Positions 5,182-44,995 of a stretch of DNA of 48,578 nucleotides are shown in pieces. Made by a program: the position numbers and the translations under genes. The stretch comes from Singulisphaera sp. GP187. GTDB taxonomy: Bacteria > Planctomycetota > Planctomycetia > Gemmatales > Gemmataceae. A model generated the notes under the pieces. The model was not told the DNA's origin and did not search any database. It saw only the letters and a program-made list of their open reading frames with translations. The number at the start of each line of letters is the position of its first letter. Position 1 is the first letter of the stretch. Location: positions 1 through 48,578 of the forward strand of contig CAMDQN010000040.1 of NCBI GenBank assembly GCA_945905925.1, in the 5' to 3' direction.

Positions 5182-6357
5182 CTATTCCGCGAGCGGTGGC
5201 TTCGTCCGCTGGCGGATGTGGTCGCTGGCCCACCGGGCCGCGTCGCGGATCACTTCTTCTGCATCCGTAAGCGCCCGCTCCAGTGCTGGCAACGCGCGTT
5301 CGTCGCCGACATTTCCCAGCACAATCGCAGCGTTTCGGAGCAGACCTACCCGCCGGTTGCGGAACAGCGACGTGCGCTTGAAACGCTTTCGGAACGCGTC
5401 GGCGTCGAGGCCGAGTAGTTCCACCGGGTCAAGCCACGCCAGTTCGGGGTCGTGAGGGAAAGCGGGCGACCGCTCCGCGGCGTTGCGGTTCCACGGGCAC
5501 ACATCCTGGCACACGTCGCAGCCGTACAGCCAGTTCCCCATTGGTTCGCGCAGTTCGACAGGAATTTCTGAGCGCAGTTCCACGGTCAGGTAACTGATGC
5601 ACTTGGTCGCGTCGAGGACGTGCGGTTCGGGGAACGCTTTCGTGGGGCACGCGTCCAGACACGCGGTGCAGGTGCCGCAGTGCGAGGAAAGGGAAGGCGA
5701 ATCGGGGGCGAGTTCGAGGCTCGTGAGGACCGCGCCGAGGAAGAAGAAACTTCCTCGGCGCGTGTTGATGAGCATCGTGTTTTTGCCGACCCACCCCAAC
5801 CCGGCGCGCCTGGCGAAGTCGCGTTCCAGGAGTGGCGCGGTGTCGGCGACGGCTTCCGTCTGGCATCCGGGCGATTCTGTGTGGAGCCACGCAGCGAGGG
5901 CGTTGAGCCGGTCCCAGATGAACCGGTGGTAGTCCGGGCCGGCGGCGTAGGCCGCGACACGGGCGAAGGAGGAACCTCTCCCCCCAACCCCCTCCCCCAA
6001 GAAAGGAGGGGGAGCCGGAGCCGGCTCGCTCGCGCTCGCGGCCGAAGAAGGTGCGGCGCCAGCCGCACCGCTTTCTCCCCCTCCCTTCTTAGGGGAGGGG
6101 GTTGGGGGGAGAGGTTGCCTTTCGCCTCCGTATTCCAATCCCACCATCAGCACGCTGCGCACGCTTTCCAGCACACTCCGCGGGTGGCGCCGCTCTTCGC
6201 GCAGTTGGGGCAGATAGCTCATCTCACCGGCGTAACCGCGATCGAGCCATTCCCCGAATCGCGCGAAGCCATCCGCGTCGGTCGCCGGCGCGATGCCCAC
6301 CAGCGCAAAGCCGAACTCTTGCGCGCGGGCCTTCAGCCTGTGTTCGATCGCCTCCAT
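5182..6357 (-). CDS. queG: Epoxyqueuosine reductase QueG with a palindrome-encoded insert
   Basis: A 391-residue enzyme for the last step of queuosine synthesis, reducing epoxyqueuosine to queuosine in tRNA with cobalamin and two [4Fe-4S] clusters. The catalytic Asp lies in ADTAPLLERD (D172). Ferredoxin-type ligands are C227, C230, C233, C237 and C280, C283, C287, with C253 between. A HEAT-like C-terminus (about 335-380) is present. Residues of about 80-128 (PLPPTPSPKKGGGE ... PPPFLGEGVGGRG) are a low-complexity insert encoded by a 140-base inverted repeat (5975-6114) between the conserved MVGLEYG and RVAAYAAGPDYH blocks. The reading frame stays open, so the enzyme is probably functional with an extended loop. 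Confidence 0.95.
   Translation of the reverse strand: MEAIEHRLKARAQEFGFALVGIAPATDADGFARFGEWLDRGYAGEMSYLPQLREERRHPRSVLESVRSVLMVGLEYGGERQPLPPTPSPKKGGGESGAAGAAPSSAASASEPAPAPPPFLGEGVGGRGSSFARVAAYAAGPDYHRFIWDRLNALAAWLHTESPGCQTEAVADTAPLLERDFARRAGLGWVGKNTMLINTRRGSFFFLGAVLTSLELAPDSPSLSSHCGTCTACLDACPTKAFPEPHVLDATKCISYLTVELRSEIPVELREPMGNWLYGCDVCQDVCPWNRNAAERSPAFPHDPELAWLDPVELLGLDADAFRKRFKRTSLFRNRRVGLLRNAAIVLGNVGDERALPALERALTDAEEVIRDAARWASDHIRQRTKPPLAE
5975..6114. repeat. C/G-rich double palindrome inside queG
   Basis: The 40-base arms 5975-6014 and 6075-6114 are reverse complements with about two differences. They begin CCTCTCCCCCCAACCCCCTC and close with the matching GGGGTTGGGGGGAGAGG. Each arm holds its own small CCCTCC..AAGAA..GGAGGG hairpin. 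The 60-base middle has another palindrome (GGTGCGGC/GCCGCACC). It belongs with the elements at 8378, 12651, 29011 and 32081, and is translated in frame as part of QueG. Confidence 0.92.
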
Positions 6358-6404
6358 ATATCTATCGTAGGCACGCTCGCCTCTGGCTTGCGGCTAACTT
6401 GGCG

Positions 6405-18616: not shown

Positions 18617-18748
18617 AGAAGAATGAGCCGCACGAAAAACGCGGAAGAAAGACACGATCAGTGAAGAAGATAAGACTGTTGTAAACACGGTCTTCGGTTT
18701 TCTCTGATCGTGTCTTTCTTCCGCGTTTTTCGTGCGGCTCATTCTTCT
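18617..18748. terminator. 45-bp perfect inverted repeat after the YTV gene
   Basis: Arms 18617-18661 and 18704-18748 are exact reverse complements by eye (AGAAGAATGAGCCGCACGAA ...), around a 42-base centre that itself can pair (AAGACTGT/ACACGGTCTT). It starts 11 bases after the YTV stop. It may terminate the highly structured YTV transcript; no poly-T run follows, so intrinsic termination is uncertain. Confidence 0.8.
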
Positions 18749-18824: not shown

Positions 18825-19673
18825 ATGTCTACCACACTCCGCGTCGGGGCGGTCAACTACCTGAACACCAAGCCGCTCGTCGAGCGGCTCACGGATTTCG
18901 CGCCCAATATCGAGCTTTCGCTCGACCTCCCGAGCCGGTTAGCGGACCAACTCAGCCGCGGCGAACTCGACGTCGGGTTGATTCCCGTCGTGGAGTTCTT
19001 TCGCGGGGACGACTACAGTTTCGTCCCGGATATCGCGATCGGTTCCCGCGGCCCGGTGCTAAGCGTCACGCTGTTCAGCAAGGTTCCCTGGGCCGAAATT
19101 CACTCGGTCAGCCTCGACGAAGGCTCACGCACGAGTGCCGCACTTACGCGAATCATCCTCGAAAAGCGGTACGGCGTGAAACCGCGATTCCAGCAGTTGC
19201 CGATCGACAGCCCAGCCGACGATCTGACGACCGACGCGGTGCTGCTCATCGGAGACCGCGCGATGCGAGCGTGCTTACCGGGTTACCGGTTCGCCTACGA
19301 CCTCGGCGAAGAGTGGACCGCGTGGACCGGATTGCCGATGGTGTTCGCCGTGTGGGCAGTGCGAAGCGGCGTCAATCTCGGCGAAGCGGAAGCGGCCTTC
19401 CACAAGGCGAAGGAATATGGTTTGGCGAACGCGGGCGCGATCGCGCAGCGTGAAGCCGGGGCGCTCGGCCTCGATCCGGGTTTCTGCCGCCGCTACATGA
19501 GCAACGTGATCCGCTACGACCTCAGCGTCGCGGAACTCGCGGGGATGAAGCGGTATCGCGAACTGGCTGAAGAAGTTGGAGTTTTGGCGAGCGGAGGGCG
19601 TAAGCCCCCTGTTGAATCGCAAAGAGAAGAAACAGGGGGCTTACGCTCCCCGCTCGCCAGGAGTAAGGCATGA
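18825..19673 (+). CDS. mqnA: MqnA chorismate dehydratase (futalosine menaquinone pathway)
   Basis: A 282-residue periplasmic-binding-fold enzyme that converts chorismate to 3-[(1-carboxyvinyl)oxy]benzoate, the first step of the futalosine route to menaquinone. Landmarks: RVGAVNYLNTKPL at the N-terminus, GELDVGLIPVVEF, DEGSRTSAALTRIIL, LLIGDRAM and YDLGEEWTAWTGLPMVFAVW. The last 28 or so residues (from about 254, GGRKPPVESQREETGGLRSP) are encoded by an inverted repeat and are not part of the family. The stop overlaps the mqnC start (ATGA, 19670-19673), so the two are co-translated. A small hairpin (CGACGGC/GCCGTCG) lies just upstream at 18789-18809. Confidence 0.93.
   Translation: MSTTLRVGAVNYLNTKPLVERLTDFAPNIELSLDLPSRLADQLSRGELDVGLIPVVEFFRGDDYSFVPDIAIGSRGPVLSVTLFSKVPWAEIHSVSLDEGSRTSAALTRIILEKRYGVKPRFQQLPIDSPADDLTTDAVLLIGDRAMRACLPGYRFAYDLGEEWTAWTGLPMVFAVWAVRSGVNLGEAEAAFHKAKEYGLANAGAIAQREAGALGLDPGFCRRYMSNVIRYDLSVAELAGMKRYRELAEEVGVLASGGRKPPVESQREETGGLRSPLARSKA
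19586..19658. repeat. GGCGAGCGG...CGTAAGCCCC inverted repeat forming the mqnA 3' end
   Basis: 28-base arms 19586-19613 and 19631-19658 pair with one or two mismatches. Each arm includes GGGC-GTAA-GCCC, a mini-hairpin. The element is inside the mqnA coding region and supplies its C-terminal residues. A second copy is at 24065-24148. Confidence 0.92.
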
Positions 19674-21661: not shown

Positions 21662-21673
21662 GCGTTCGCACCT

Positions 21674-21786
21674 TGTAGGGTGGGTCAAGGCTTTACGCAG
21701 GCCCACCACGGCGACGCCACAACGATTAACGTTTCTCCTCCAGCTCTGCGCCGGTGGGCCTGCGCAAAGCCTTGACCCACCCTACA
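21674..21786. repeat. GTAGGGTGGGTC double palindrome before the ABC ATPase gene
   Basis: 34-base arms 21674-21707 and 21753-21786 pair with about one mismatch (A/C at CTTTACGC versus GCGCAAAG). It begins 12 bases after the upstream stop and ends four bases before the next ATG (21791), so it covers the ribosome-binding region. It is the double form of the single hairpin at 22516-22570. Confidence 0.92.
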
Positions 21787-21790
21787 AAAC

Positions 21791-33619: not shown

Positions 33620-33702
33620 CGAACCCCGCCCACCAGGGCGGGGGGGGTGCGGCGACCGACGGAACGACACGCGAACCCCCCCCGCTTTTGTGGGCGGAGT
33701 TC
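33620..33702. repeat. Inverted repeat between the superoxide dismutase and DUF4337 genes
   Basis: The arms 33620-33650 (CGAACCCCGCCCACCAGGGC...) and 33672-33702 are reverse complements with four or five differences. Each arm has a CCCGCC..GGCGGG-type small hairpin. The element fills the 98-base gap between two convergent genes and probably works as a two-way terminator. Confidence 0.8.
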
Positions 33703-33712
33703 GCCCAACCAG

Positions 33713-43380: not shown

Positions 43381-43467
43381 GTCTCAAGTCAACAAGTCTC
43401 AAGTCACAAGTCGGAAGACCGGCTGGTTGGCTCTCGACTTGGGACTTGAGACTTGTTGACTTGAGAC
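43381..43467. repeat. AAGTC-heptamer inverted repeat between cysH and the Rrf2 gene
   Basis: 33-base arms 43381-43413 and 43435-43467 are reverse complements with one mismatch; within each arm the words AAGTCTC, AAGTCAA, AAGTCAC recur. It starts three bases after the cysH stop and ends seven bases before the Rrf2 ATG. The element at 9669 is built from the same word. Confidence 0.92.
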
Positions 43468-43992: not shown

Positions 43993-44907
43993 ATGATCAG
44001 CAGCAGTTACAACCTGACCCATCTGAAGCTACTTGAGGCTGAGAGCGTCCACATCATCCGCGAGGTCGCCGCCGAGTTCGAGCGCCCGGTGATGCTGTAC
44101 TCGATCGGCAAAGACTCCGCGGTCATGCTCCACCTGGCGCAGAAAGCGTTCTACCCCGGTAGGCTGCCCTTCCCGCTGCTCCACGTCGATACGACCTGGA
44201 AGTTTAAGGCGATGGTCGAGTTCCGCGACCGGTTCTGTCGCGAGCAGGGCTTCGATCTGAAAATCTGGACCAACCCGGAAGGAAAGGCCCAGAACATCAA
44301 CCCGTTCGACCACGGCTCGAAAAAGTACACCGACACCATGAAAACGGTGGCGCTGAAGCAGGCGTTGAACCACTACCAGTTCGACGCGGCGTTTGGCGGC
44401 GCTCGCCGCGACGAGGAGAAGAGCCGAGCCAAGGAGCGCGTCTACAGCTTCCGCGACCGCCTGCACCAGTGGGATCCGAAGAACCAGCGGCCGGAACTCT
44501 GGAACCTGTACAACGGCAAGGTGAACAAGGGCGAAAGCATCCGCGCCTTCCCGCTGAGCAACTGGACCGAACTCGACGTTTGGCAGTACATCCACCTGGA
44601 GAACATCCCGATCGTGCCGCTGTACTTTGCCGACGTCCGCCCGGTCGTCGAGCGCGACGGCACGCTCATCATGGTGGACGACGACCGAATGCGGTTGCGG
44701 CCCGGCGAAGAGCCGATGATGAAGAAGGTGCGATTCCGCACGCTGGGGTGCTACCCGCTCACGGGGGCGATTGAGAGCAACGCAACAACACTGCCGGAAA
44801 TCATCGAGGAAATGCTCCTGGCGAAGAACTCCGAGCGCCAGGGTAGGGTAATCGACCACGACGAGACTGGGTCGATGGAGCAGAAGAAGCGCGAGGGGTA
44901 TTTTTGA
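43993..44907 (+). CDS. cysD: Sulfate adenylyltransferase subunit 2
   Basis: A 304-residue ATP-pyrophosphatase-type enzyme that makes APS from sulfate with CysN. The [13 protein letters not shown] motif is the PP-loop; [16 protein letters not shown] and [14 protein letters not shown] are conserved CysD blocks. ATG at 43993 follows GCAGGAGGGC at a good distance. It shares an operon with cysNC, separated by an inverted element that begins at its stop codon. Confidence 0.96.
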
Positions 44908-44995
44908 AAGGATGAGGGATGAGGGATGAAGGATGAAAGAAGCACCGCTTCTCTTCTCTTATTCATCCTTCATCCCTCATCCTTCATCCTTTCAG
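44905..44995. repeat. GGATGARG-octamer inverted repeat between cysD and cysNC
   Basis: The left arm (44905-44937) repeats GGATGAGG/GGATGAAG words; the right arm (44961-44995) repeats their complements, ATCCTTC/ATCCCTC, with one or two differences. The TGA stop of cysD (44905-44907) is the first part of the left arm, and the right arm ends nine bases before the cysNC ATG at 45004. Confidence 0.9.

Follow-up and report, generated by a model that had tools for sequence, protein, structure and literature searches.

How does a palindrome of 144 nucleotides (nt) come to lie in frame inside the conserved gene queG, and why is the same loop of the enzyme occupied by unrelated palindromes in related species? 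The gene lies on the minus strand of the window, by which we mean the whole 48,578-nt stretch analyzed here (contig CAMDQN010000040.1 of Singulisphaera sp. GP187). It encodes an epoxyqueuosine reductase of 391 residues (TIGR00276, 330.7 bits against a cut-off of 200), which also matches the Pfam families QueG_DUF1730 and Fer4_16 and the PDB chains 5d08 and 5d6s. The inserted segment belongs to a family of non-autonomous palindromic repeats dispersed in this planctomycete genome. We consider it probable that several non-autonomous palindrome families insert widely and that only frame-keeping insertions in permissive loops survive, so that unrelated families recur at one site.

The element comprises two arms of 42 nt, which are 95% complementary and 60 nt apart, and adds about 48 residues in frame, touching codons 81-129 (Table 1). 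The first-pass annotation, made from the sequence of the window, had reported a double palindrome at 5975-6114 within an unbroken queG frame. The palindrome is confirmed and extends 2 nt further on each side (5973-6116), the word "double" is apt since each arm contains its own smaller inner palindrome (family D1), and the frame is open throughout, with the proposed reading PLPPTPSPKKGGGE...PPFLGEGVGGRG. All residues invariant in a 50-sequence QueG alignment, including D172 and the cysteines, are retained, in agreement with the earlier statement that the catalytic residues are kept. The inverted-repeat score of the element is 36, as against 16 at most in 20 first-order Markov sequences of window length, and its RNA fold reaches -129.2 kcal/mol (z -11.45). 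The 23-base core of the arm occurs twice in the window, once per arm, and in none of 100 shuffles (≤3 mismatches).

Table 1 Position and makeup of queG and of its palindromic element in the window
Feature	Position	Strand	Evidence
queG, epoxyqueuosine reductase, with insert at residues 81-129	5182-6357	-	open reading frame (ORF), TIGR00276, Pfam and PDB matches
C-rich palindromic element (family 1) of 144 nt, keeping the queG frame	5973-6116	-	inverted repeat, dispersed copies
Upstream arm (gene direction), translated PLPPTPSPKKGGG; 25-nt inner palindrome at 6077-6101	6075-6116	-	inverted repeat, ORF
Variable middle of 60 nt (9 nt in the nearest relative's copy), with an alanine/serine-rich translation	6015-6074	-	
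Downstream arm, translated PPFLGEGVGGRG; 25-nt inner palindrome at 5988-6012	5973-6014	-	inverted repeat, ORF

In the AlphaFold model of the window's QueG (50-sequence alignment), the mean predicted local distance difference test (pLDDT) value is 89.6, with 311 of the 391 residues at 90 or above, and the known QueG structures 5d0b, 5t8y, and 5d6s are the best matches. Residues 93-126, located between the strands 68-75 and 132-134, nearly all have a pLDDT below 50, and the ten-residue blocks of the insert average 44-57. Mapped onto this model, the insert is predicted to form a disordered loop in an otherwise ordinary QueG.

The repeat family of the element (family 1) gave at least 93 matches (40 scored of 290 candidates) in the window's own genome (G000; 6.47 Mb, 251 contigs). 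Since a palindrome can match both strands, the places are fewer than the matches. We examined 43 loci, 23 from this DNA search and 20 fetched besides, which represent 42 places. L017 and L271 were counted as one, since they are apparently two halves of one mfd copy. Their contigs, C79 and C227, end inside the same element type with the apparent mfd halves on either side, and the repeat probably breaks the assembly there. The criterion for a genic copy was one open frame across the element with Pfam or NCBIfam matches on both sides, and 21 of the 42 places are in frame inside conserved genes by this measure (L281-L283 were chosen by protein-level search, which favours open frames; a further place from that search, C107, is outside the 42). 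The hosts are queG, recD2, a farnesyl-diphosphate-synthase-like gene, rarA, nuoL, cheA, dcuC, an IGHMBP2-type helicase, recO, selB, an acyl-ACP acyltransferase/ligase, an AcrB-type pump, an FAD-linked oxidase, a glycosyltransferase, an ArnT-like gene, a FabA-like-domain gene (L276, half element only), a CCA-adding-type nucleotidyltransferase, a PMT_2 glycosyltransferase, trmL, cobW, and hpnE. When the part after the element was searched alone in L007, L275, and L279, the profile resumed near the position of its stop (160/167, 284/290, and 86/99). A copy in an ABC transporter gene (L020), whose second side narrowly missed the threshold (E 0.0013), was left out of the 21. The remaining 21 places are one-sided, lack an open frame or a family match, or, in the mfd copy, are split between contigs. 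The putative ends GAAGAACC and GGTTCTTC occur together in just 12 of 40 copies, and singly in 20 and 22, so we do not claim them as fixed ends of the element.

The frame of the genic copies is not random. Each arm is open in two of the three frames. The right arm is translated as PPFLGEGVGGRG or a close variant in all 20 full-length genic copies, and the left arm is PLPPTPSPKKGGG-like in 15 of them, with other types in L008, L264, L268, L270, and L278. The arm-to-arm span modulo 3 falls into classes 1, 2, and 0 in 15, 5, and 0 of the 20 genic copies and in 8, 5, and 6 of 19 other copies. Scored with L282 cut short by the search pattern and L275 missed, both of which are class 1, the genic counts were 13, 5, and 1 of 19. 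The deficit of class 0 (0/19 genic against 6/19 other copies) has a Fisher p of 0.020, or 0.090 with L282 as first scored. In class 0, which the genic copies avoid, the favoured right-arm frame is reachable solely from the stop-containing frame of the left arm.

QueG-like matches were found in all 19 genomes of the genus, and 17 are readable at the loop (the match in G006 is weak and stray, and the G002 contig lacks the loop part). G006, at 82% completeness, has no proper queG match, owing to gene loss or missing sequence. Palindromes occupy the loop in 13 of the 17, nine strongly and four more weakly. Inverted-repeat scores are 24-36 in G000, G003, G001, G018, G005, G007, G013, G014, and G008, 15 in G010 and G016, and 10-11 in the C-rich inserts of G012 and G009; the loop of G015 contains one arm only, and palindromes are absent from G004, G011, and G017. 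By local alignment with 60 shuffles per pair, which covered ten genomes (G003, G007, G009, and G015 were placed by eye), the inserts form six sequence groups: C-rich (G000, G003, G012, G007, G009, G016, and G005), GTGCGGA (G001 and G013), CGTAAG (G018 and the single arm in G015), CCGCGACCGT (G014), ATTGACG (G010), and GATTCGG (G008). Two between-group scores are slightly above the best shuffle (G001-G008, 25 against 23; G005-G014, 28 against 27). One insert per group was searched against its own genome, and all six are repeated there, with at least 93 matches in G000, 47 in G001, 80 in G014, 87 in G018, and 70 in G010 (40 candidates scored in each) and 16 matches, at about eight places, in G008; the query is itself counted, as are matches on either strand. 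The queG inserts of G012, G007, G016, and G005 have similar counterparts in recO or selB of the respective genome.

Outside the genus, the QueG loop has a median length of 17 residues (range 11-40; 49 sequences aligned, from 49 of 80 genome_contigs loci, none of which we could place in the genus), and the nearest named relative (L087, a Fimbriiglobus metagenome-assembled genome) has a short loop without insert. If the segment were a QueG domain or a lineage-specific conserved extension, it would be expected in frame and in most readable genomes of the genus, and some insert is indeed present there. However, its sequence is unconserved and unrelated between species, it recurs in unrelated proteins, and it is predicted to be disordered; we give this explanation practically no credence. 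The view of the first-pass annotation that the segment is an inserted element and not a domain is thus upheld, since the loop holds unrelated inserts within the genus, and not the common conserved insert that would have spoken for a domain, and is shorter outside it.

The same comparison bears on whether the loop was filled once or repeatedly. One ancestral insertion may have diverged in each lineage; the Rickettsia japonica authors favoured such an origin for the Rickettsia palindromic elements (RPEs) RPE-4, -6, and -7, judging it likely and not excluding hotspots (PMC3767692). The C-rich inserts of G000, G012, G016, and G005 are mutually similar above all 60 shuffles for each pair, and G000, G003, G007, and G009 have a common left junction, GGC/AACCT, in queG. 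The C-rich inserts could be a single old insertion, and this explanation may hold within that group. Inserts that are non-homologous and match families of their local genome contradict it for the genus as a whole. The other five groups resemble neither the C-rich group nor each other beyond the best of 60 shuffles, save the two marginal scores, each of them has an insert with matches among the dispersed repeats of its host, and the sisters G010 and G018 (support 100 in a three-gene tree) carry unrelated inserts. One ancestral insertion is thus very unlikely for the genus, and the queG case favours repeated insertion. In the same tree, of which several deep nodes are weak, G008 has a queG insert and its sister G004 (support 96) has none. 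Fitch mapping with the C-rich groups merged required 9 changes, not fewer than in shuffles (136/1000 at or below), and 10 changes with these groups split (0/1000 at or below), so that the tree signal is confined to the split C-rich families. Even between G000 and its nearest relative, G003, where the element has the same left junction, the arms are identical at 79 of 84 bases and the middles are 60 and 9 nt long, whereas the fourfold sites of queG are 58-59% identical; simple descent of one neutral insertion is therefore insufficient.

Two further hosts of family 1 were compared across the genus (unreadable in recO: G009, G006, and G018; in selB: G009, G015, and G018). In recO, one and the same site carries an insert in 8 of the 16 readable genomes (scores in brackets). 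The palindromes are clear in G000 (46), G015 (29, CCGCGACCGT group), and G007 (22) and weaker in G012 and G016 (15 each) and G010 (13), whereas the inserts of G003 (10) and G001 (8) show no evident palindrome; the site is empty in G002, G005, G008, G017, G004, G013, G014, and G011. The recO site thus holds two palindrome groups. The selB inserts, in G000 (38), G007 (41), G005 (40), G016 (11), and G012 (10), are all C-rich, the other ten genomes read keep a linker of 23-25 residues, and G001 is short in the alignment. In G007, two palindromic elements lie in tandem in one loop in each of queG, recO, and selB (L038, L180, and L198).

These tandem elements and the high occupancy of the queG loop (13/17) are consistent with active targeting, in which an enzyme prefers hairpins or lagging-strand sites in loops, and palindromes replace or join palindromes at a true docking site. 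Y1 transposase matches, some adjoined by hairpins, also occur in 16 of the 19 genomes of the genus (80 matches; none in G007, G011, and G017). On the other hand, the left insertion points in queG vary by up to about four codons between groups, which fits tolerance better; the family-1 or family-2 arm pattern is absent from the 32 Y1 loci scanned among the 80 matches (in 4 of which our script did not recover the Y1 ORF); and G007 has inserts in all three genes without a Y1 match. Active targeting of this kind is therefore quite unlikely.

In G000, the family-1 pattern (≤2 mismatches) is absent from all three Y1_Tnp loci, of which one is IS200-like and two are like REP-associated tyrosine transposases (RAYTs; REP, repetitive extragenic palindrome), all under the NCBIfam cut-offs; in this assembly of 251 contigs, the gene in question may be missing. 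Short patterns of the other groups (≤2 mismatches) match many Y1 loci, mostly distant from the gene or inside it, as chance would give. One C-rich pattern match sits in a hairpin adjoining the Y1 gene of L062, and L238 (G002) has a hairpin like those of the CCGCGACCGT group 136 nt upstream of a Y1 ORF. No transposase gene flanked by family 1 was found, Y1 transposases being the class sought. Further candidate explanations were rejected. A RAYT-driven REP doublet forming a hairpin (REPIN) fails for family 1, as no family-1 pattern lies at the scanned Y1 loci. A correlation of Y1 genes with inserts fails on G007, where C-rich inserts are present although no Y1 gene was detected; G011 and G017 have neither a Y1 match nor a palindrome in queG, recO, and selB. 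As for a phage origin, an exact-match search of viral_contigs with the 22-base core of the arm gave nothing, records near the window's genome being possibly excluded from it. RAYT/IS200-like enzymes acting in trans are possible but unsupported as the mobilizer, which may also be another enzyme. Separately, long hairpins of other sequence lie directly on both sides of the RAYT-like Y1 gene of L061 (L061:1176-1265 and 1898-1971), and a long hairpin of other sequence lies on one side of that of L062 (L062:1868-1959). A half copy of the L061 RAYT-flanking hairpin (2 mismatches in 24) is located at window 6374-6397, just upstream of the queG start.

The hairpin itself may have been adopted for a function, either as RNA or through its peptide, for example in translation pausing between the parts of QueG or in mRNA stability, in which case any strong palindrome would suffice and selection would maintain one in the loop. 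Palindromy is indeed common to the unrelated sequences, and the fold z-score is -3.8 or lower in 8 of the 17 genus loops. However, the inserts of G010, G016, G009, and G012 fold weakly beyond shuffles (z -1.2 to -2.2), G004, G011, and G017 lack a loop palindrome, and G015 has a single arm. Moreover, most QueG loops of other genera could not accommodate a palindrome, being too short, and like insertions occur in many unrelated genes. An adopted function is, in our estimate, highly improbable.

Several known systems resemble the queG element. The elements of Rickettsia and Wolbachia (RPEs and WPEs) are palindromes of about 100-150 bp in several families (PMC3767692, PMC10969869), comparable to the queG element with its 144 nt and 42-nt arms. 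They insert into existing ORFs of many unrelated genes and keep the frame, as 21 of 42 places do here, and RPEs are described as an unusually frequent case of in-frame insertion (PMC10969869). RPEs encode solvent-exposed segments (PMC3767692, PMC10969869), and the queG insert is a predicted disordered loop. RPEs, which the first-pass annotation had named as the precedent, are thus apt for the behaviour of the queG element. Unlike in RPEs, the host, which judging by its named relatives resembles a Gemmataceae-type planctomycete, belongs to another phylum, six groups occupy one loop, and one insert per group is repeated in the host genome; the likeness is one of behaviour. In Rickettsia orthologues, different RPE groups lie near one another, and the choice between hotspot and common origin was left open (PMC3767692). 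REPs are reported within many genes, repair genes frequently among them, and recB of X. campestris and that of X. oryzae carry different REPs at about the same site (PMC3733652). The queG element is similar to REPs and REPINs in its inverted pair of small palindromes, in its copies inside many genes, and in the inner stem of about 9 bp, which fits the 5-13 bp of GTAG-type stems (Table 1 of PMC3733652). It differs from these GTAG- or CGTC-tagged palindromes in its 42-nt arms, in the absence of GTAG, CTAC, CGTC, and GACG anywhere in the element, and in that no RAYT gene flanked by family 1 was found. Bacterial miniature inverted-repeat transposable elements (MITEs), such as ERIC, Correia, and QMITE, are likewise non-autonomous and dispersed, have terminal inverted repeats, and sometimes form in-frame fusions (PMC10969869). 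Unlike for MITEs, no target-site duplication was seen here, and the parent element was sought among Y1 transposases only. Palindromic coding DNA is also known from PARCELs (PMC2996958) and from nematomorph mitochondria, where, unlike here, it lies in organelle genes of four species (PMC6649704). Among the literature matches listed, there is no report of in-frame palindromes in Gemmata, the genus name taken from the first-pass annotation.

The window contains eleven further hairpins with scores of 17-45, including those at 1753-1882, 18617-18748, 19585-19659, 21673-21787, 43381-43467, and 44905-44994. The hairpin at 18617 is perfect with 45-nt arms, and that at 19585 is of the CGTAAG type. Of ten hairpins checked, an open frame extending 50 amino acids to each side surrounds just two, 33620-33703 and 43381-43467, both frames being no more than putative genes.

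We propose that several independent palindrome families insert widely, that insertions breaking the frame or striking the folded core would be removed, and that frame-keeping insertions in a flexible linker would persist, their translation giving a disordered loop. Suitable loops being few in any one protein, unrelated families would recur at one site. Several observations weigh against this proposal. Without the places chosen by protein-level search, the in-frame count is 18/39. The selB gene, which holds C-rich inserts alone, gives no evidence for unrelated families, and its sole close empty site (G003) suggests that the element there replaced about 23-25 native bases. No target-site duplication was seen by eye in the flanks of the copies. 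The inserts of G010 and G016, with scores of just 15 and fold z of -1.6 and -1.2, hardly differ from shuffles. The merged Fitch mapping, no better than chance, is expected if gains were independent, but also if the tree is poor. The conserved arms of G000 and G003 require that homogenization, DNA-level constraint, or re-insertion be added to descent. In G009, queG, recO, and selB (L033, L179, and L197) are all broken inside palindromic inserts: the queG insert contains two stops next to an N gap, the recO insert contains stops when read in the flanking frame, and the two flanks of selB differ in frame, with one N present. Some C-runs of G009 are one C shorter than in G007, which suggests sequencing trouble in hairpins, and the frame breaks may reflect either misassembly of hairpins or real lesions. 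Finally, translation and tolerance of the insert are predictions from sequence and model.

The queG case suggests that certain protein loops are landing sites reused by several kinds of selfish DNA, in a genome where half of the examined copies of one such repeat sit inside conserved genes. Relative to what is known, it extends RPE-like behaviour to another phylum and shows more clearly than before how a single coding loop can hold unrelated groups, which bears on the Rickettsia question of whether such sites are hotspots of elements of different origins or one diverged insertion (PMC3767692). The three genes compared across the genus form a natural replicated experiment on which loops of proteins tolerate added sequence. 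There is an outside chance that certain loops of conserved proteins in this genus are true docking sites where unrelated palindrome families succeed one another through enzymes acting on hairpins already present. If so, a coding loop would be a heritable "landing pad" that outlives each element and continually rewrites a disordered stretch of the protein.
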